DNA of 25,707 nucleotides, taken from IMG/VR virus record IMGVR_UViG_3300040960_000486, positions 1 through 25,707 of that record. One strand, written 5' to 3'. The notes under the pieces were generated by a model that searched no databases, was not told where the DNA came from, and saw nothing but the letters and a program-made list of their open reading frames with translations. This DNA is from a virus. Both the position numbers and the translations under genes were made by a program. Of the stretch, positions 4,739 through 21,239 are shown piece after piece (positions within the stretch are counted from its first letter, which is position 1; each line of letters starts with the position of its first letter).

Positions 4739-5062
4739 TCATGTGATGTCATCTATGATTTCAACACGAATATACCCGTCATTAGGGAATGTCTCAACAC
4801 TGGCATCAGCGTAAGTCACCTCAAATTCCGCTTGGTATGATCCGATTGTCGCAGTATCAGCAGCACTCCACACATAACGCACAATGCCGCTCAGTGGCGT
4901 GACGATGCTTGCCGCTGCATCCACAGTGATTGTTGTGCCGCCCAGTGGCCGCATATGAAACTGCACAGATGATCCTGTCAGATCGACCGCATTGCCATCG
5001 GCATCTTGCAGAGTAGCCTGCATAATCGGGCTTGTGTCATTCTGTTTAATATAAAATGTCAT
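4739..5062 (-). CDS. BppU-like (Ig-fold) tail/baseplate protein
   Basis: The 107-residue protein has the pattern of the BppU N-terminal domain family: an N-terminal strand (FYIKQNDTSPIMQATLQDAD), a GNAVDLTGSSVQFHMRP core, a VRYVWSAADTATIGSYQAEFEV region and a C-terminal FPNDGYIRVEI strand. In lactococcal phages this domain attaches receptor-binding proteins to the baseplate; here it is a stand-alone Ig-like protein, probably decorating or adapting the tail tip. It starts one base into the stop of the repeat protein gene (TAATG), so the two are coupled and may be built into the same structure. Confidence 0.7.
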   Translation of the reverse strand: MTFYIKQNDTSPIMQATLQDADGNAVDLTGSSVQFHMRPLGGTTITVDAAASIVTPLSGIVRYVWSAADTATIGSYQAEFEVTYADASVETFPNDGYIRVEIIDDIT

Positions 5063-6486
5063 TACGCGGCCTCTTCCACGATTACGCTGTTGGGCGAGTT
5101 ATGCGTGATAATACACACATTACCACCAAACGTCACTAGCACAGCAGTTGTTTGATCCACAGCAATCTCATCAATCACCACACGATTTGGCCCATCGTTC
5201 AGCACAACGCCAGTGGCGTATATCTCATCCACAATCGCAGCATTACCGCCATCAGCCACAAGTGCCACATTGTTTGTCAGCCCGTCAGCCAATGCCACAC
5301 GCCCAACAGACGCATTCGGATACAGTGGCGGCACAATCGGCTGACCTGTCGTAATACCATCGCCTGACAGGCTATGCTCTTGCACAATCTGTGGCTGGCC
5401 AATGTCAGGCGCACCGCTGACCACAGGATCAGCCGCGAATGTCTCATCCTCATACATCGTGCTGGCCTGCACGATAGGCTGATCCGTTGTAATATTATCG
5501 CCAGCAAAGTTAATCACCACGACCAACTCAGGTGATTCCACCACGGCTGGCTGTGCATTGATATTAGCAGCACTCAGGTCATGCTCTTGCGTCAGGCCAA
5601 GCGTTGCAACAACAGGCGCACCAGCCGTAATTGGCCGCGCGTTAAATGTCTCATCCTCTTGCATCGTGATTGACGCAACAGATGGCGCGCCAGATGCAAC
5701 GTCACCGCCTGACAGTGCATGACCCTGACCAATGCTGGATGCTGCAACAGTGGGCTGACCCGCCGCAATGCCATCGCCAGCAAGAGGATAAACTTCTGTA
5801 ATATCCGTGCTGCCTATCACAGGCTGTGCCGTGGTGATGCCAGTGCCTGACAGCGCATGATCCTGTGTCAGGCCCGCAGCGCCGCAGACAGGGCTGCTTG
5901 CCGTAATAGCAGTGCCAGACAGTGCATGATCCTGTGAGATGCCTGACGCGCCAACTGTGGGGCTACCAGATACAATCGGCTGCGCGTTGAATGTCTCATC
6001 TTCTGCCATCGTAATGGCAGCCACAGATGCGGCGCTGGTAATGATGCTGTTGCCTGACAGGTCATGGATTTGAGCAAATCCTGCTGCATCACTTGTTGGC
6101 ACACCAGTGGAAAAGCTCACGCCTGACAGGGCATGATCCTGTGTGATGCTGGATGACGCTACGTCAGATGGGGCAGTGGAAATGTTCGCCGCTGTAAGTG
6201 CGTGGCCCTGCGTGATGCTAGATGCGGCAAGTGTGGGCTGTGCGGTGGTGATGCTAGTGCCAGACAGGGCATGGGTCTGGCCAATGCTTGACGCAGCCAA
6301 CGTGGGCTGCGCTGTGGTCAGGCTTAGGTCTTGCTCAGGGACATCATCGAAATTGCCAGACAGGGCATCGAATAGGCCAGTCTGATCGTCAAACTGCGGG
6401 GCAGACAGCAGATCAGTGCCGCCATCGTCAAACAGGCGTTGCCTGTCATCAAACAGACCGATCTGGCTGTCAAACAATCCCGCCAT
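5062..6486 (-). CDS. Tail-associated repeat protein (23-residue repeats, LFD-rich N-terminus)
   Basis: The 474-residue protein has three parts. Residues 3-48 contain a run of F-D-D/L-F-D motifs (GLFDSQIGLFDDRQRLFDD and onward). Residues about 54-395 are some 15 tandem repeats, nearly all exactly 23 residues, with consensus LSGxxITTxxPxxxxSxIxQxHA. Residues about 396-474 are a non-repetitive beta-rich end (VALADGLTNNVALVADGG, NRVVIDEI). Such repeats are typical of fibrous beta-structured phage tail proteins. Position between tail fibre genes and a BppU-like gene fits a tail fibre or tip decoration. The LFD motif is also present in the GpJ-like protein (10757-13663), hinting at a shared interface. 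No enzymatic domain is visible. Confidence 0.7.
   Translation of the reverse strand: MAGLFDSQIGLFDDRQRLFDDGGTDLLSAPQFDDQTGLFDALSGNFDDVPEQDLSLTTAQPTLAASSIGQTHALSGTSITTAQPTLAASSITQGHALTAANISTAPSDVASSSITQDHALSGVSFSTGVPTSDAAGFAQIHDLSGNSIITSAASVAAITMAEDETFNAQPIVSGSPTVGASGISQDHALSGTAITASSPVCGAAGLTQDHALSGTGITTAQPVIGSTDITEVYPLAGDGIAAGQPTVAASSIGQGHALSGGDVASGAPSVASITMQEDETFNARPITAGAPVVATLGLTQEHDLSAANINAQPAVVESPELVVVINFAGDNITTDQPIVQASTMYEDETFAADPVVSGAPDIGQPQIVQEHSLSGDGITTGQPIVPPLYPNASVGRVALADGLTNNVALVADGGNAAIVDEIYATGVVLNDGPNRVVIDEIAVDQTTAVLVTFGGNVCIITHNSPNSVIVEEAA
5300..6327 (-). repeat. Coding 69-bp tandem repeat array (23-aa units)
   Basis: About 15 units of 69 bases encode the 23-residue repeats. 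Two junction types occur: most units end QxHA/LSG, but three units end EDET and the following unit begins F(N/A)A (around 6000, 5655 and 5445). The first two such junctions are five units apart and the last two three units apart, suggesting that blocks of several units were duplicated together. The first unit is three residues short. Confidence 0.75.
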
Positions 6487-16890: not shown

Positions 16891-17454
16891 CTACGCGCCT
16901 CACAAGTTCCTTATACTCATCAGCCGACATGGCCTCAGAACCAGCCTTCTTGGGATTGTGCGCTTCATGCCATCCCTCGAAGATATTGAATGTGTCTTTT
17001 GGCAACATATCACGAATTTCATCAGGGCGTAAACCAATGACAATGCCATTGCGAATTAACTGTCTAACATTCAGGCGGCTTGGGAGTTTTCCTTGATCTT
17101 TTTTTTTGATTTATTTTCCGCTTCCTCTATCGCATCTGGCATGAAGGCAACGCCCACAATCGCCTGCGCAAGTTGAAGCAAGTGCATGAGTTGATCTGGG
17201 CCGCATTCTGACAGAACCTTGTCAGCATCGTGATCCTTCATGCCACCGCCAACCAAGGCAAGTGCAACCAGATCACGCACCTCTGTGCTGCTTGGCTTTT
17301 TACCTCTGCCAAAAACACTTTCCCAGAAATCGAAGATACCGCGATGCTTATCTTCAAAACGCTCAATCTCGCGGTTGCGCAAGATGAACGTATAAGAGGT
17401 GCTGCCGATATACTCGACAACACCCCCACGCGGCGCTTGTGCCGTGATAGCCAT
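16880..17454 (-). CDS. Tail assembly chaperone, -1 frameshift fusion product (gpGT-like)
   Basis: Frame 0 (127 aa) ends at TGA 17071-17073. A -1 frame shift at the nine-A run (17107-17099) lets translation continue to TAG at 16882-16880. The join is complement(join(16880..17098,17098..17454)), giving 119 + 72 = 191 residues. The downstream frame has no stop and no ATG near its beginning; its first ATG is 31 residues in, and a TAA sits just upstream of the slip, so it is best expressed by frameshifting. The extension (RLNVRQLIRNGIVIGLRPDE, FNIFEGWHEAHNPKKAG) resembles a tail assembly chaperone C-domain. In lambda, gpG and gpGT bind the tape measure protein and recruit tail tube subunits. The gene sits, as expected, between tube and tape measure genes. 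Confidence 0.8.
17071..17454 (-). CDS. Tail assembly chaperone, frame-0 product (gpG-like)
   Basis: The 127-residue protein has a beta-rich N-terminus (RGGVVEYIGSTSYTFILRNR), a middle with FEDKHRGIFDFWESVFGRGK and LVALALVGGGMKDHDADKVL, and a very lysine-rich end (ENKSKKKIKENSQAA) encoded by the slippery A-run. It corresponds to the GTA-type gene between tube and tape measure. It should be the abundant product, with the longer -1 product made at a few percent or more. It overlaps the major tail gene by 1 base (TAATG). Confidence 0.75.
   Translation of the reverse strand: MAITAQAPRGGVVEYIGSTSYTFILRNREIERFEDKHRGIFDFWESVFGRGKKPSSTEVRDLVALALVGGGMKDHDADKVLSECGPDQLMHLLQLAQAIVGVAFMPDAIEEAENKSKKKIKENSQAA
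17098..17107 (-). other. Slippery sequence for -1 programmed frameshifting
   Basis: On the - strand nine A are followed by G; in frame 0 this reads TCA AAA AAA AAG ATC, so it contains the optimal A-AAA-AAG heptamer. A purine-rich GAGGAAG lies at 17127-17121, 13 bases before the A-run, and could serve as an internal Shine-Dalgarno-like stimulator as at dnaX. I see no strong downstream hairpin within about 40 bases. Confidence 0.8.
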
Positions 17455-17879
17455 TACGCAGCCGTAAACGTGACCGTGCCAGTGCTTTCAAGGCTGATGC
17501 TGTAGGTCACACCGCCTTCTGTCTCACCGCCAAACTCAAGCGATGTGATGCGGAATGCGCCTGCATATGTGCCAAAATCAGGAACGATCACTTGAAAGTT
17601 TGCCTGATTGTCATTCTGCATTGCCACAGTGTTCATGCGTGCTTCTGCGGTGCTGTCCTCAAAGAAACCATCGCCAGAGACAGACACGTTCTTCAAGCCA
17701 GCCAATGTCTCAGTCCACAATGCGCCTTCTGGCGTTGTGCAGTCTGGGGTGGTTACGTCAATCGCAGAGTTGTTGATCGTCAACGACTTGCTGTTCAAAC
17801 CGCAAAGGTTTGCAAAAGTTTCAGATACTTCGCCATCCCCGATCTTAACGAGCAAGGCGCGTCCAAGTTGTTTAGCCAT
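17454..17879 (-). CDS. Major tail tube protein (TP901-1 family)
   Basis: The 141-residue protein matches the TP901-1/GTA-type tail tube family: a start with LGRALLVKIGDGEVSETFA, CGLNSKSLTINNSAIDVTTP, a central GLKNVSVSGDGFF, and the C-terminal beta strands FRITSLEFGGETEGGVTYSI ending in GTVTFTAA. It forms the rings of the non-contractile tail tube. It is preceded by a special 33-base hairpin/RBS element (17884-17916) shared only with the major capsid gene, consistent with a need for high expression. A purine-rich GGAGG acts as the Shine-Dalgarno sequence. Confidence 0.88.
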   Translation of the reverse strand: MAKQLGRALLVKIGDGEVSETFANLCGLNSKSLTINNSAIDVTTPDCTTPEGALWTETLAGLKNVSVSGDGFFEDSTAEARMNTVAMQNDNQANFQVIVPDFGTYAGAFRITSLEFGGETEGGVTYSISLESTGTVTFTAA

Positions 17880-17883
17880 GATC

Positions 17884-17916
17884 GGCCTCCATTAATTGCG
17901 CTTGCCCACAGCGCGG
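17884..17916 (-). promoter_or_regulatory. Hairpin/RBS leader element upstream of the major tail gene
   Basis: This 33-base stretch matches 21178-21210 (upstream of the major capsid gene) at 28 positions without gaps, at the same distance (4 bases) from the start codon. On the - strand it contains GCGCTGTGGGCAAGCGC (17914-17898), able to form a 6-bp stem with one bulged G and a GGGC loop, followed by an A/T-rich spacer and the GGAGGCC Shine-Dalgarno region. It fills most of the 40-base gap. Confidence 0.7.
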
Positions 17917-17919
17917 AGT

Positions 17920-18339
17920 TTAGGCGGTTTCCTCAAGCATCGCTTGAAGCGCGATAACAGCCGTGTAGCCACGACCCTCATCATCTCTTGTAACCGAATA
18001 GGTCTGAAATATCAATTCGACCAAGGTGTGTCCCGTTACTGTAACAGAAGCCTCTTGCCGATGCAGCGCCTCTTTTACAGCCTCAACCATTTGCGTGGCC
18101 TCAACGCGACCAGATGCGCTGCGAGAATGAGCCTCAATAGAGATGCCCACAATCGACCCTTCGGTGGTGTCAGTGTCAAACGCGCTTGGCTCAATGTCAC
18201 CAAATCGCATATATGGGAATGTCACGTTCTGCGGTGGCTCATCATAGATACGAGTTGAGACAAGCGCAGTCACGCCGCTATTCGCAACCAATGCAGCGCG
18301 CAAACCCTTCTGCAAAGCAAGACCAAAACCATCAGCCAT
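17920..18339 (-). CDS. Tail terminator (DUF3168-like)
   Basis: The ATG at 18339 is preferred over a GTG at 18348 because GGAG lies 8 bases upstream of it but directly abuts the GTG. The 139-residue product has the DUF3168/tail completion pattern: ADGFGLALQKGLRAALVANS, VSTRIYDEPPQNVTFPYMRF, ISIEAHSRSASGRVEATQMV and a C-terminal beta-rich segment. It caps the tail tube and joins it to the head. Its end lies 40 bases before the tube gene, where the 33-base leader element is located. It overlaps the gp10-like gene by 8 bases. Confidence 0.85.
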   Translation of the reverse strand: MADGFGLALQKGLRAALVANSGVTALVSTRIYDEPPQNVTFPYMRFGDIEPSAFDTDTTEGSIVGISIEAHSRSASGRVEATQMVEAVKEALHRQEASVTVTGHTLVELIFQTYSVTRDDEGRGYTAVIALQAMLEETA

Positions 18340-18724
18340 TGACTGCACTCCTTGCTGCCTTGTTGATGGCGTTTCTAATATTGTTTCTGTGGCGCTTTGC
18401 TAGGTGTTTTTTCATGATATTGATATATGGCGCGGCTTTAGTCTCGCCTCTATTTTCACGCTTTGCGCCGCCCTCAACAGACTTAGCCTTGATCTGCGCC
18501 TCTTTTGTTGGTGGTGCGGCTTCAATAGATGCAGTCAAACCGCCGTTTTCATACTTTGTATGTATCCAACCCTTCAACTGTCCGCTGTCAACAGGCGCAA
18601 GCTGACGGGCTAGCCGCGCGCCAGCCTCAGCATTTCTTCTAATGACCTTGGCAATCTGAGTTCTTGTCTCAACGGGCAAGTCCTTTAATTGCTTTTGCAA
18701 TTTTTTAGCACCAGTAACTCTCAT
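18332..18724 (-). CDS. HK97 gp10-like head-tail/neck protein
   Basis: The 130-residue, strongly basic protein has the HK97 gp10 family pattern: VTGAKKLQKQLKDLPVETRT, a helical ARLARQLAPVDSGQLKG core, and a basic C-terminus (NIMKKHLAKRHRNNIRNAIN). The LAPVDSGQLK motif is highly characteristic. It belongs to the neck/tail-completion group. ATG 18724 overlaps the previous stop (ATGA) and the gene lies between the adaptor and the tail terminator, the usual order. Confidence 0.85.
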   Translation of the reverse strand: MRVTGAKKLQKQLKDLPVETRTQIAKVIRRNAEAGARLARQLAPVDSGQLKGWIHTKYENGGLTASIEAAPPTKEAQIKAKSVEGGAKRENRGETKAAPYINIMKKHLAKRHRNNIRNAINKAARSAVNG

Positions 18725-19059
18725 GTCGCCACACCCCGCTCTAGCTTAAACTCAAGCATGGTATTTTTGGCATCAGTCTGGATCACATCCTTGATGTTCC
18801 AAGTCTTGCCGCGACACACGACACGATCAGCCGATGTGATGGTCTGGGTGGTGCTGTCAGAACGCGCACGCATGGTTGCCTGACCGACATCAGACAACGC
18901 ACCGCCTTGGATGTCCTCTTTGCCAGTGACCTCGCGGATGTCCACAGATCGCGTGGCAAGTGTGGCCCAGCCTGTATATACGTTGCCGTAATCATCAACT
19001 GCGCCTTCGCTCAGTCGCTGAAAGGTCGCACGATCACGCAGCAGGCCAGCCTTAACCAT
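18721..19059 (-). CDS. Head closure / head-tail adaptor protein
   Basis: ATG 19059 is chosen over an in-frame start at 19083 because AGGCGG lies upstream and the protein then starts in the family's typical way (MVKAGLLRDRATFQR). The 112-residue product has AVDDYGNVYTGWATLATRSV, VDIREVTGKEDIQGGA and a closing beta strand pair (RVVCRGKTWNIKDVIQTD), matching SPP1 gp16-like/Phage_H_T_join adaptors that plug the portal after packaging. It overlaps the gp6-like gene by 8 bases. Confidence 0.85.
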   Translation of the reverse strand: MVKAGLLRDRATFQRLSEGAVDDYGNVYTGWATLATRSVDIREVTGKEDIQGGALSDVGQATMRARSDSTTQTITSADRVVCRGKTWNIKDVIQTDAKNTMLEFKLERGVAT

Positions 19060-19660
19060 ACCAACACCGCCTGTGCATATCAATCAAAGCGTCAAAGCCA
19101 TATGGTATATTCTTTGATATGCTTCCAACCAATTCATTTTCACGATGCTCATACCAATGACCGATCAGCATCATCATTGCGTGGCGAAGCGTGTCAGGCA
19201 CATCAGATGCAGATGTGCCATATCCGATTGTATATTCAATGCGGATTGCATCTGGACGATCCTCTGCAACAGGCCAGTTGAAGCCCTCTTTTGGCCCGAT
19301 TGTCTTGGTGAAATCAGTGCCATAAATCTCATAATTGCTGAGAGTGTCAGTCTGCAAATTGCCATCAATGTCGTAATACTTGACCGCATCAACAGAGATG
19401 ACAGGCCCAAGCGTCAGATTGACAGTTTGCGCTGGTGTGCTTGTAACCCACTGGCCCCACTTCTGCGAAATCATCGCATGACCAAGCGCACCCTTAACGT
19501 CAGTGTAAGCCACTGCAACATTGATAAGGCGATTGATCAGCGTGTCATCATCAGTATGCTCAATGCGCAACTGTGCCTTCACCTCCGTCAGCGTGACAGG
19601 GGTGGTGGCTGGAGCCTCAAGCAGTTCTAATGCGTCATGACAGGCAAGAGGCTTAACCAT
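19052..19660 (-). CDS. Head-tail connector (gp6-like)
   Basis: The 202-residue protein matches the gp6-like connector family of HK97/GTA phages: LTEVKAQLRIEHTDDDTLIN near residue 23, LINVAVAYTDVKGALGHAMI, QKWGQWV, and a C-terminal helical part (RHAMMMLIGHWYEHRENELV) with IPYGFDALIDMHRR at the end. It forms a ring under the portal. ATG 19660 lies 3 bases after the stop of the preceding small gene. Confidence 0.9.
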   Translation of the reverse strand: MVKPLACHDALELLEAPATTPVTLTEVKAQLRIEHTDDDTLINRLINVAVAYTDVKGALGHAMISQKWGQWVTSTPAQTVNLTLGPVISVDAVKYYDIDGNLQTDTLSNYEIYGTDFTKTIGPKEGFNWPVAEDRPDAIRIEYTIGYGTSASDVPDTLRHAMMMLIGHWYEHRENELVGSISKNIPYGFDALIDMHRRCWYG

Positions 19661-19663
19661 AGC

Positions 19664-19855
19664 TTATTCGTCCTTTACGGCCTTGCGTGTGAACCGCTTT
19701 TTTGTTGCGCGCTCAACCTTCGGTTCTTCAACTGGCTCTGCGATGCCAGCAGAGATAAAGCGCAATGCCTCAGCCTCATTAGCATCAATTACATCACCAG
19801 CGTTATGCGAAAAATCAATGCCTGCCATAGATGTTAAGAGTTTAATCTTGGGCAT
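19664..19855 (-). CDS. Small head-associated protein (DUF7210-like, 63 aa)
   Basis: ATG 19855 is preferred over an upstream ATG at 19867, whose codons themselves contain the GGAGG Shine-Dalgarno sequence for 19855. The 63-residue product (MPKIKLLTSMAGIDFSHNAG, DVIDANEAEALRFISAGIAE) is a small beta-strand/helix protein followed by a basic Lys/Arg-rich tail. It resembles the short proteins encoded between capsid and connector genes in many HK97-type phages, for which no firm role is known. It follows a hairpin that separates it from the capsid gene. Confidence 0.65.
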   Translation of the reverse strand: MPKIKLLTSMAGIDFSHNAGDVIDANEAEALRFISAGIAEPVEEPKVERATKKRFTRKAVKDE

Positions 19856-19874
19856 AATACCCTCCATTTCTAGA

Positions 19875-19912
19875 TCAACTTAATAAGCAGGGCGAACTTG
19901 CCGCCCTGCCGT
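19875..19912 (-). terminator. Hairpin after the major capsid gene (attenuator/terminator)
   Basis: On the - strand GCAGGGCG pairs perfectly with CGCCCTGC (19909-19902 and 19894-19887) around a 7-base loop, followed by TTATTAAGTT. It lies 13 bases after the capsid stop codon. The T-run is broken, so it may be a partial terminator that lowers transcription of the genes downstream of the capsid gene, or an mRNA-stabilising hairpin. Confidence 0.65.
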
Positions 19913-19922
19913 TAAATTGACC

Positions 19923-21173
19923 TTACGATGCGGCCAGTGCGAGGTGCTTGATTGCAGCAGTGTTGGAGAGAACACCGTCAAAGCGGATGTAGCCCAAGAT
20001 GCCGTAATCAGGTGCAAAACGCTCACGCGCAACGTAGATGGATGGTGCGCCAACCTTGCGAACATAGAACTTCGACATATCACCGAAGAGCATGATCTTG
20101 GAAGATGCGCCATCACCGATGCCAGCCATCGCTTGGTTGACTACAACATTGTAGCCCAACAAGTTCTGTGGGATGCCAGCTTGGTAGTTGCCCATCTGCC
20201 AGAGGTAGTTGCCGTTGCCGTCCTTCAACTTGCGAACCGCTGCCAAAGTGCTGTCATCCATCATGATGGCAGTGTTTGGTGCGGAACGGTAGGCTGGATC
20301 AACAGAGTGGATCAGGTCGATGATCTCATCAGCAGTTACTGCGTTAGTTGCGGCTGCAACTTTGCCTGCTGCTGAGTTGGTCACGATGCCCTCAACGTCA
20401 GAAGAACCAGAACCAGTGGTCAGCTTGCTGTTTGCAATGCGGCCAAGACGCTCACCGAGCAACTCGCCCAACAGGCTTTCCATGTTCAAGATGCTGTCTG
20501 CGTTGAGTTCTGCCGACCAGCGAACCCACTCGCTGTCGAATGCAAACGCGCCGAGCGACTTCTGACCAAAGGTAACGTCCTTGCCACCATCGTCTGTTGG
20601 CTGAGTGCCTTCAGTGTGCGCAACTGCGGTGACTGCGGTGTCATCTACAGTTGGGATGTTGAAGGTGCGGCCATCAGTGGAGTTGATGTAGGTGAAGAAC
20701 TGGTTGCCATACATTGGGCCAGTTGCAATCATCGCCTTCTCAATGAAGGTCGCCAACTCAGTTGGGACAGTGTAGCCACCAGCAGTAGCAGAAGTAGTCT
20801 GTGCGCGATGCTCTTTAAGAACATTGCGAACCTCTGCGTCCACATAGGCATCGCCACCTGCTGCAATCATTTCAGCAAATGCAGAGCGATAGTCCATCTG
20901 GAAGCCAGCGTCTACCGCAGGTGCGGAACCAGCTTCTGCCTGTGGGCGGCGCGAGAAATCAACTGCCTCGCCAGCGCGAAGTGCAGCTTCAACTTTCTCA
21001 AGACGCTCAACCTTAGCGGCCAGCTTGTCGTGGTCCGCCATCATTGCGTCAAACTCACGCTCAACTTCAGCAGCACGATCCTCTGGGGTTTCGTCCGTTA
21101 CATCGGACAGCTTTGCGCGGGCCTCAGTGGCGATACGCGCCATCTTCTCCCGCAGGTCTTTAATGTCAGCCAT
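19923..21173 (-). CDS. Major capsid protein (HK97 fold)
   Basis: The 416-residue protein is of HK97-family length and layout. A charged coiled-coil delta domain at about 1-75 (IKDLREKMARIATEARAKL, DHDKLAAKVERLEKVEAALR) probably acts as internal scaffold and is removed by the protease. The mature domain follows from about 95-110, with TSATAGGYTVPTELATFIEK, FNIPTVDDTAVTAVAHTEG and WVRWSAELNADSILNMESLL. The end has DYGILGYIRFDGVLSN. The gene is preceded by a special hairpin/RBS element (21178-21210) and followed by a hairpin, consistent with strong, insulated expression. Confidence 0.93.
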   Translation of the reverse strand: MADIKDLREKMARIATEARAKLSDVTDETPEDRAAEVEREFDAMMADHDKLAAKVERLEKVEAALRAGEAVDFSRRPQAEAGSAPAVDAGFQMDYRSAFAEMIAAGGDAYVDAEVRNVLKEHRAQTTSATAGGYTVPTELATFIEKAMIATGPMYGNQFFTYINSTDGRTFNIPTVDDTAVTAVAHTEGTQPTDDGGKDVTFGQKSLGAFAFDSEWVRWSAELNADSILNMESLLGELLGERLGRIANSKLTTGSGSSDVEGIVTNSAAGKVAAATNAVTADEIIDLIHSVDPAYRSAPNTAIMMDDSTLAAVRKLKDGNGNYLWQMGNYQAGIPQNLLGYNVVVNQAMAGIGDGASSKIMLFGDMSKFYVRKVGAPSIYVARERFAPDYGILGYIRFDGVLSNTAAIKHLALAAS

Positions 21174-21177
21174 TGTG

Positions 21178-21210
21178 GGCCTCCTTCAAATGCGCTTGCC
21201 CAAGGCGCGG
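21178..21210 (-). promoter_or_regulatory. Hairpin/RBS leader element upstream of the major capsid gene
   Basis: This is the partner of 17884-17916 (28 of 33 bases identical). On the - strand GCGCCTTGGGCAAGCGC (21208-21192) folds into a 6-bp stem with one bulged C and a GGGC loop, then a short A/T-rich spacer, then AGGAGGCC and the ATG 4 bases later. The stem in the two copies differs only around the bulge, so the fold is kept. Confidence 0.7.
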
Positions 21211-21221
21211 GACAGGGCCAA

Positions 21222-21236
21222 CAGCGGGAGCCGCTG
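21222..21236 (-). other. Short GC-rich hairpin after the protease gene
   Basis: CAGCGG and CCGCTG flank a CTC loop, starting 3 bases after the protease stop codon on the - strand. No T-run follows, so it is more likely an mRNA processing or 3'-end stabilising structure than an intrinsic terminator. Together with the leader element it makes the 66-base protease/capsid gap highly structured. Confidence 0.5.
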
Positions 21237-21239
21237 CTA

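Follow-up and report, generated by a model that had tools for sequence, protein, structure and literature searches.

The window analysed here is the whole of one virus record (IMG/VR IMGVR_UViG_3300040960_000486, 25,707 bp), and our subject is a short leader that it carries twice, once before the gene for the major capsid protein (MCP) and once before the gene for the major tail tube protein (MTP). Judged by their covariation among related phages, the two leaders are copies of one RNA element with two covarying helices, here called S1 and S2. The same element precedes capsid, tail tube and tail sheath genes in unrelated phages, and it probably lets the virus make far more of its shell and tail proteins than of their neighbours.

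The leader element and its two helices

Both leaders lie on the minus strand, at 21210-21178 (CCGCGCCTTGGGCAAGCGCATTTGAAGGAGGCC) and 17916-17884 (CCGCGCTGTGGGCAAGCGCAATTAATGGAGGCC). The original prediction had them matching at 28 of 33 positions and stopping 4 nt short of the ATG codons at 21173 (MCP) and 17879 (MTP), and the window sequence bears this out; a repeat finder also recovered the pair as repeat D16, 43 nt long at 81%. Within the record the leader is indeed confined to these two genes, as had been claimed, since GGGCAAGCGC occurs exactly twice. The HK97-type MCP gene (19923..21173, minus strand) matches PF05065 (2e-51) and phrog_10 (1.6e-63), and the MTP gene (17454..17879, minus strand) matches PF06199 (2.8e-28) and phrog_1407 (8.4e-37).

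The consensus of the element reads 5'-GCCN, 3-10 nt, the 5' arm of S2 (S2a, part of a 3-5 bp stem of any sequence), CUU (NNU in some families), N'GGC, AA, the 3' arm of S2 (S2b), approximately 5-16 nt, GGAG and AUG. In the MCP leader, on the minus strand, the S1 5' strand GCCC (21215..21218) pairs with the loop GGGC (21198..21201), the fourth base of the former covarying with the first base of the latter, while the covarying stem S2 is formed by two GCGC arms (21205..21208 and 21192..21195). The loop is followed by an AA linker that is invariant in the alignment (L3, 21196..21197), and the Shine-Dalgarno (SD) sequence GGAGG (21180..21184) by CCC. The MTP leader, on the same strand, has the S1 5' strand GCCU (17922..17925), which overlaps the final codon and the stop codon of the tail-terminator gene, covarying S2 arms GCGC at 17911..17914 and 17898..17901, the loop GGGC at 17904..17907, the invariant AA linker at 17902..17903, and the SD GGAGG at 17886..17890, followed by CC.

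For an unbiased view of these leaders, viral contigs were fetched with the MCP and MTP proteins and the sequences upstream of the start codons were read without use of the motif, which gave 99 distinct leaders. The loop TGGGCA was present in 92 of them. Each of these 92 has flanking arms that are paired at no fewer than the three inner positions of the 4-nt window, and a GCCY at most 12 nt upstream; arm positions are paired in 95% of cases versus 53% after shuffling (10 distinct arm combinations). The seven exceptions are loop variants, such as AGGC with an upstream GCCT in locus L241. A set of 51 diverse leaders was selected with at least three pairs required, so that the protein-retrieved leaders serve as its unbiased check. 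Here all four S2 pairs show double changes (GC, CG, UA, AU), the covariation score is 0.603 versus 0.121 for shuffled leaders, and 90% of the S2 cells are paired versus 59.5%. When the S2 partner is shifted by 1-3 columns the covariation is lost (score 0.02-0.12).

The fold originally drawn, a 6-bp stem with one bulge, did not survive as the conserved unit: only its lower GCGC/GCGC part covaries and the upper part is unsupported. The inner U-A pair of that upper stem shows almost no variation, many relatives have C, G or A at the outer "U-A" position, and the two bases 3' of the S2 5' arm read CU, UC, UG, CG, CC or AA among the leaders with a nearly constant A facing them. As first drawn, with a small hairpin, a 4-nt loop and 2 bp plus a 5' bulge, the leader resembles the MS2-type coat-protein operator, a hairpin that covers the start of the replicase gene, binds the coat protein and has no helix between the loop and upstream sequence. 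This reading was dropped, as the upper 2-bp/bulge part is not conserved and the outer upper-stem pair (UU/AA) is absent in many MTP leaders.

The 33 nt were also incomplete, since the GCCC (21218-21215) and GCCU (17925-17922) that are complementary to, and pair with, the loop GGGC lie outside them. Such a GCCC or GCCU is found in a sharp peak 4-9 nt 5' of the stem; 170 of 182 leaders have it within 14 nt, and the background further up is near zero. S1 was set up as a prediction, namely that if the first loop base differs, the fourth base of the upstream strand should change to match it, and was tested by a scan for HGGC loops. Among leaders followed by ATG, C-loops were found with GCCG (20), GCCT (13) and GCCC (2), A-loops with GCCT (4) and GCCC (1), and U-loops were mixed. 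In a non-redundant table (downstream proteins less than 70% identical; where a context held more than one GCCN, the copy closest to the usual spacing was used) the fourth base was C36 T8 G1 for G-loops, T3 C1 for A-loops and G17 T7 for C-loops. Watson-Crick matches number 57 of 80, compared with a shuffled mean of 30 and a maximum of 44, and none of 20,000 shuffles reached the observed value. As a negative control the third loop base was changed: GGHC gave 16 matches in the same collection, none with a suitably placed start after an SD and a long frame, and one with a spurious 74-aa frame. On the strength of the table and this control, we conclude from the sequences that GCC:GGC is fixed and that the fourth S1 pair covaries.

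The strand order S1a-S2a-S1b-S2b is that of an H-type pseudoknot. It is possible either that both helices coexist in this way or that they compete and alternate as a bistable switch; when leaders are folded singly, the minimum free energy (MFE) structure has S1 in some cases and S2 in others.

Phages and genes that carry the element

A comparison with close relatives, proposed at the outset as the place where the element might prove absent before capsid and tail genes, found it present: 86 of the 87 related contigs in which both leaders are readable have it at both the MCP and the MTP gene, and the leader match is therefore far beyond chance. It also precedes the MTP gene of Rhodobacter phage RcapNL and is present in Sinorhizobium phage phiLM21, in a prophage of Oceanicola sp. 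22II-s10i and, in a variant form, in one of Gemmobacter nectariphilus. The tail sheath gene of Aurantimonas phage AmM-1 has GCCG with CGGC. Rhizobium phages RHph_TM3_3_3 (GCCG...GCGC ctt CGGC aa GCGC) and RHph_N28_2 (GCCT...GCAC ctt AGGC aa GTGC) show compensatory changes in both helices at homologous loci. All named hosts are Alphaproteobacteria.

Bacterial genomes yielded few copies. Among 385 alphaproteobacterial genomes four matched one form of the pattern, and two of these (Oceanicola and one other) had the full element; a third had a gene of tail type, without a GCCN at its usual spacing. A covariance model is too short on its own for whole-genome searching, and in a survey of 248 Rhodobacteraceae genomes it found an SD and a gene only at the Oceanicola prophage copy, the other readable matches being chance-like and without SD or start. 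The element thus appears to be phage-specific. Gene transfer agents (GTAs), whose MTP is approximately 40% identical, do not have it, and no further copies were seen in RHph_TM3_3_14B, Strzyga or Caulobacter TMCBR2. One contig binned as a "Euryarchaeota archaeon" metagenome-assembled genome (L259, PBTA01000007) encodes close homologues of the window MTP (72%) and MCP (62%) without the element; it is probably a misbinned phage contig.

Although the pattern scans were independent of any gene, the genes found 3' of the element are those of very-high-copy virion proteins: capsids, tail tubes of several families and tail sheaths. The capsid families comprise HK97, phrog_264, 1005 and 4523, and a phrog_13692 protein that resembles annotated Arthrobacter phage capsids. 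Taken without redundancy, the downstream proteins number 72, of which tail-tube families of Pfam match 19, 6, 5, 4 and 3 (with possible overlap), Phage_capsid matches 10, further capsid families are found in single members and a tail-sheath PHROG matches 5. The remaining proteins are unassigned; a GTA DUF2460 protein, at the least, is a match by chance. The downstream proteins are unrelated to one another. Conservation, covariation and placement in unrelated phages speak strongly for the originally suggested dedicated structured leader of the most abundant virion proteins; what fell short was the detailed fold.

Capsid and tail-tube subunits are needed by the hundred for each phage particle, yet their genes stand among low-copy ones in a single operon, and except in a few model phages little is known of how the ratios are set. 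The element is short, common to unrelated phages and marks the high-copy genes, and since compensatory variants exist in isolates it can be tested directly with single and double mutants. It may also aid annotation, since capsid, tail-tube and sheath genes could be flagged with no need of protein homology, and could be a possible expression part for alphaproteobacteria.

Possible functions of the element

Tentatively, and with slightly less than even confidence, we read the element from its sequence context as a cis-acting post-transcriptional booster of high-copy virion cistrons, which in the leading version of the model protects the 5' boundary of an mRNA. It would act after transcription and raise the yield of the capsid, tail and sheath cistrons from a polycistronic late mRNA. 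In this model the late transcript would be cut or terminated at a stem-loop just 5' of the element, the compact RNA at the new 5' end would shield the capsid or tail message from 5'-end-dependent decay by RNase E or RNase J, and the ribosome-binding site would be left open beside the protective fold. RNase J has been reported in Rhodobacter (PMC6238624).

Three properties of the surroundings favour such a boundary role: stem-loops or terminators abut the element, its distance to the SD is loose, and inserted hairpins are tolerated. The 40 nt 5' of GCCN fold better than shuffled sequences (mean z -1.32 versus -0.17 for control stretches, P=6e-9). Of two 8-bp stem-loops in the window, one ends 1 nt before the GCCN strand of the MCP element (AGCAGCGG-CTC-CCGCTGTT, 21220..21238, minus strand, in the gap between the protease and MCP genes), and the other ends 5 nt before that of the MTP element (CTTCAAGC-GAT-GCTTGAGG, 17931..17949, minus strand, within the 3' end of the tail-terminator gene), the latter kept in relatives but also coding. 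The sheath family has terminator-type hairpins upstream with a U-tract reaching GCCN; at six loci with sheath-type genes (L338, L357, L360, L389, L489 and L533) the U-tract finishes 0-3 nt before it, which raises the question of how the sheath mRNA arises. Between element and SD lie 5-16 nt, or 35-62 nt where an extra hairpin is inserted, and this variation argues against a rigid ribosome contact. A second hairpin of this kind (e.g. GGACTGATCGTCGTGATGACAGACCAGTTCC) lies between element and SD in L202, L132, L253, L191, L298 and other MCP leaders, with apparent compensatory changes (GCC..GGC in L202/L132, and in L253). The long form is also found before the MTP gene of L228, and leader types therefore move between genes.

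Several observations weigh against this picture. MCP homologues in Rhizobium 16-3, RHph_Y3_1 and LagS-V1 are without the element, and as these are close homologues it is not essential for such genes; nor was it found before the genes examined in two Bradyrhizobium phages and Brevundimonas Polewnik, which have MCP homologues. The linker L3 is only 2 nt, which is tight for crossing a 4-bp S1, so the two helices may alternate rather than coexist. Loops with U as first base fit the S1 rule poorly (C5 A1 T1), and the stem-loop 5' of the MTP element is part of a coding sequence, with no clear covariation. Finally, CC or GCC directly follows GGAG in 47 of 92 element leaders versus 36 of 289 other genes of the same contigs (P=2e-13); this sequence could pair with the loop, pointing to translation control.

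The last observation leads to an alternative that we hold possible but somewhat less probable, namely that the element enhances or switches initiation, or that its fold is a ribosome standby site. In the switch version the loop N'GGC would pair either with the upstream GCCN, so that the SD is accessible (ON), or with the GCC that stands 3' of it, so that the SD is hidden (OFF). The position directly 5' of the SD in nearly all cases fits this, as does the split of the MFE folds between S1 and S2, which is like that of a bistable RNA. However, about half of the leaders have no GCC after the SD, the base that follows the downstream GCC shows no clear dependence on the loop base (in small numbers), and a loose SD distance with a whole second hairpin inserted in some leaders also speaks against translational control. 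We rank boundary protection as somewhat more likely than a translational switch. Sequestration of the SD by a long closing helix of GCC..UCC with GGAGGC, seen in single-sequence folds, was rejected, being limited to some MCP leaders. The nearest positional analogue is the SAS/ESAS of cluster K mycobacteriophages, which also place a repeated SD-core element (GGGATAGGAGCCC, and thus GGAGCC) directly before several starts, with an inverted repeat upstream in about half of the cases (PMC3203893). That element is a 13-bp sequence present in 11-19 copies, and those who described it saw little evidence that the ESAS repeats pair as RNA (PMC3203893). SAS/ESAS are confined to the non-structural half of those genomes, whereas the present element has 1-2 copies, precedes structural genes only, differs in sequence and shows clear RNA covariation.

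By analogy, the element might be a bacterial counterpart of the exonuclease-resistant RNAs (xrRNAs) of viruses, a minimal pseudoknot of many unrelated alphaproteobacterial phages that would block 5'-dependent decay by RNase J or RNase E at cistron boundaries; we regard this as unlikely. If true, capsid, tail-tube and sheath messages would outlast the rest of the late transcript. The xrRNAs of RNA viruses are compact pseudoknotted RNAs, and like them the element could halt 5'-3' decay and leave a stable downstream RNA, but they act on the eukaryotic Xrn1 and have other folds and sequences (PMC5760640, PMC7527734). Resistance to bacterial RNase J is here a hypothesis drawn from that likeness.

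Still less probable is an operator for a trans-acting RNA-binding protein, a phage or host regulator that would repress or activate the production of capsid and tail proteins, in the way of gp32 at the T4 gene 32 pseudoknot. An invariant GGC and AA within a covarying frame are typical of protein-recognised RNA. Of the functions first suggested, an enhancer of expression or mRNA stability fits the data, but the gene product is unlikely to regulate its own synthesis, since the downstream proteins are mutually unrelated, and a host factor would have to be assumed. The gene 32 leader of T4, T2 and RB69 is, as the present element may be, a phage mRNA pseudoknot 5' of a ribosome-binding site that acts on one cistron (PMC3014915, PMC535899), and according to a review it is possibly the sole viral example in translational autoregulation (PMC3014915). 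Unlike the present element it is the autoregulatory operator of a single gene, bound by its own product and located approximately 67 nt before the start. The present element has another sequence and precedes many unrelated virion genes, and its crossing order is deduced from covariation of both helices. No family of Rfam 15 matched the window or 12 diverse loci, a permissive search of the region gave chance-level matches only, and no description of this element, or of a phage pseudoknot before capsid or tail genes, was found in the open literature searched.

A DNA-level signal (promoter, terminator or recombination linker) or a recent functionless duplication would suit two copies per genome at intergenic or near-intergenic sites, but is very improbable: compensatory changes in both helices require pairing and not a fixed DNA site, the element invariably lies in the sense direction ahead of a start codon and is found in distant phages, and promoter and terminator scans found no promoter-like site at either leader and no terminator-like T-tract after the hairpin. 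An intrinsic terminator was rejected for the element hairpin itself, which is followed by an A/T-mixed spacer and the SD.

Other features of the window

The minus strand encodes terminase, portal, protease, MCP, connector proteins, tail terminator, MTP, chaperone and tape measure. A second hairpin and ribosome-binding-site leader repeat, unrelated to the MCP/MTP element, is present on the plus strand, where identical 35-nt leaders (AGAGGGGCTTCGGCCCCTCACCAACCAAACTGGAG, a UUCG hairpin plus SD) at 407-441 and 610-644 precede two small open reading frames (ORFs) that start at 451 and 653; the UUCG hairpin of AGAGGGGCTTCGGCCCCTCACCAACCAAACTGGAG also occurs at approximately 92-115, followed by a T-tract and thus terminator-like. 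An ORF at 5062-6486 (minus strand) contains 69-nt (23-residue) periodic repeats over approximately 5339-6300 and probably encodes a tail-fibre-like repeat protein.

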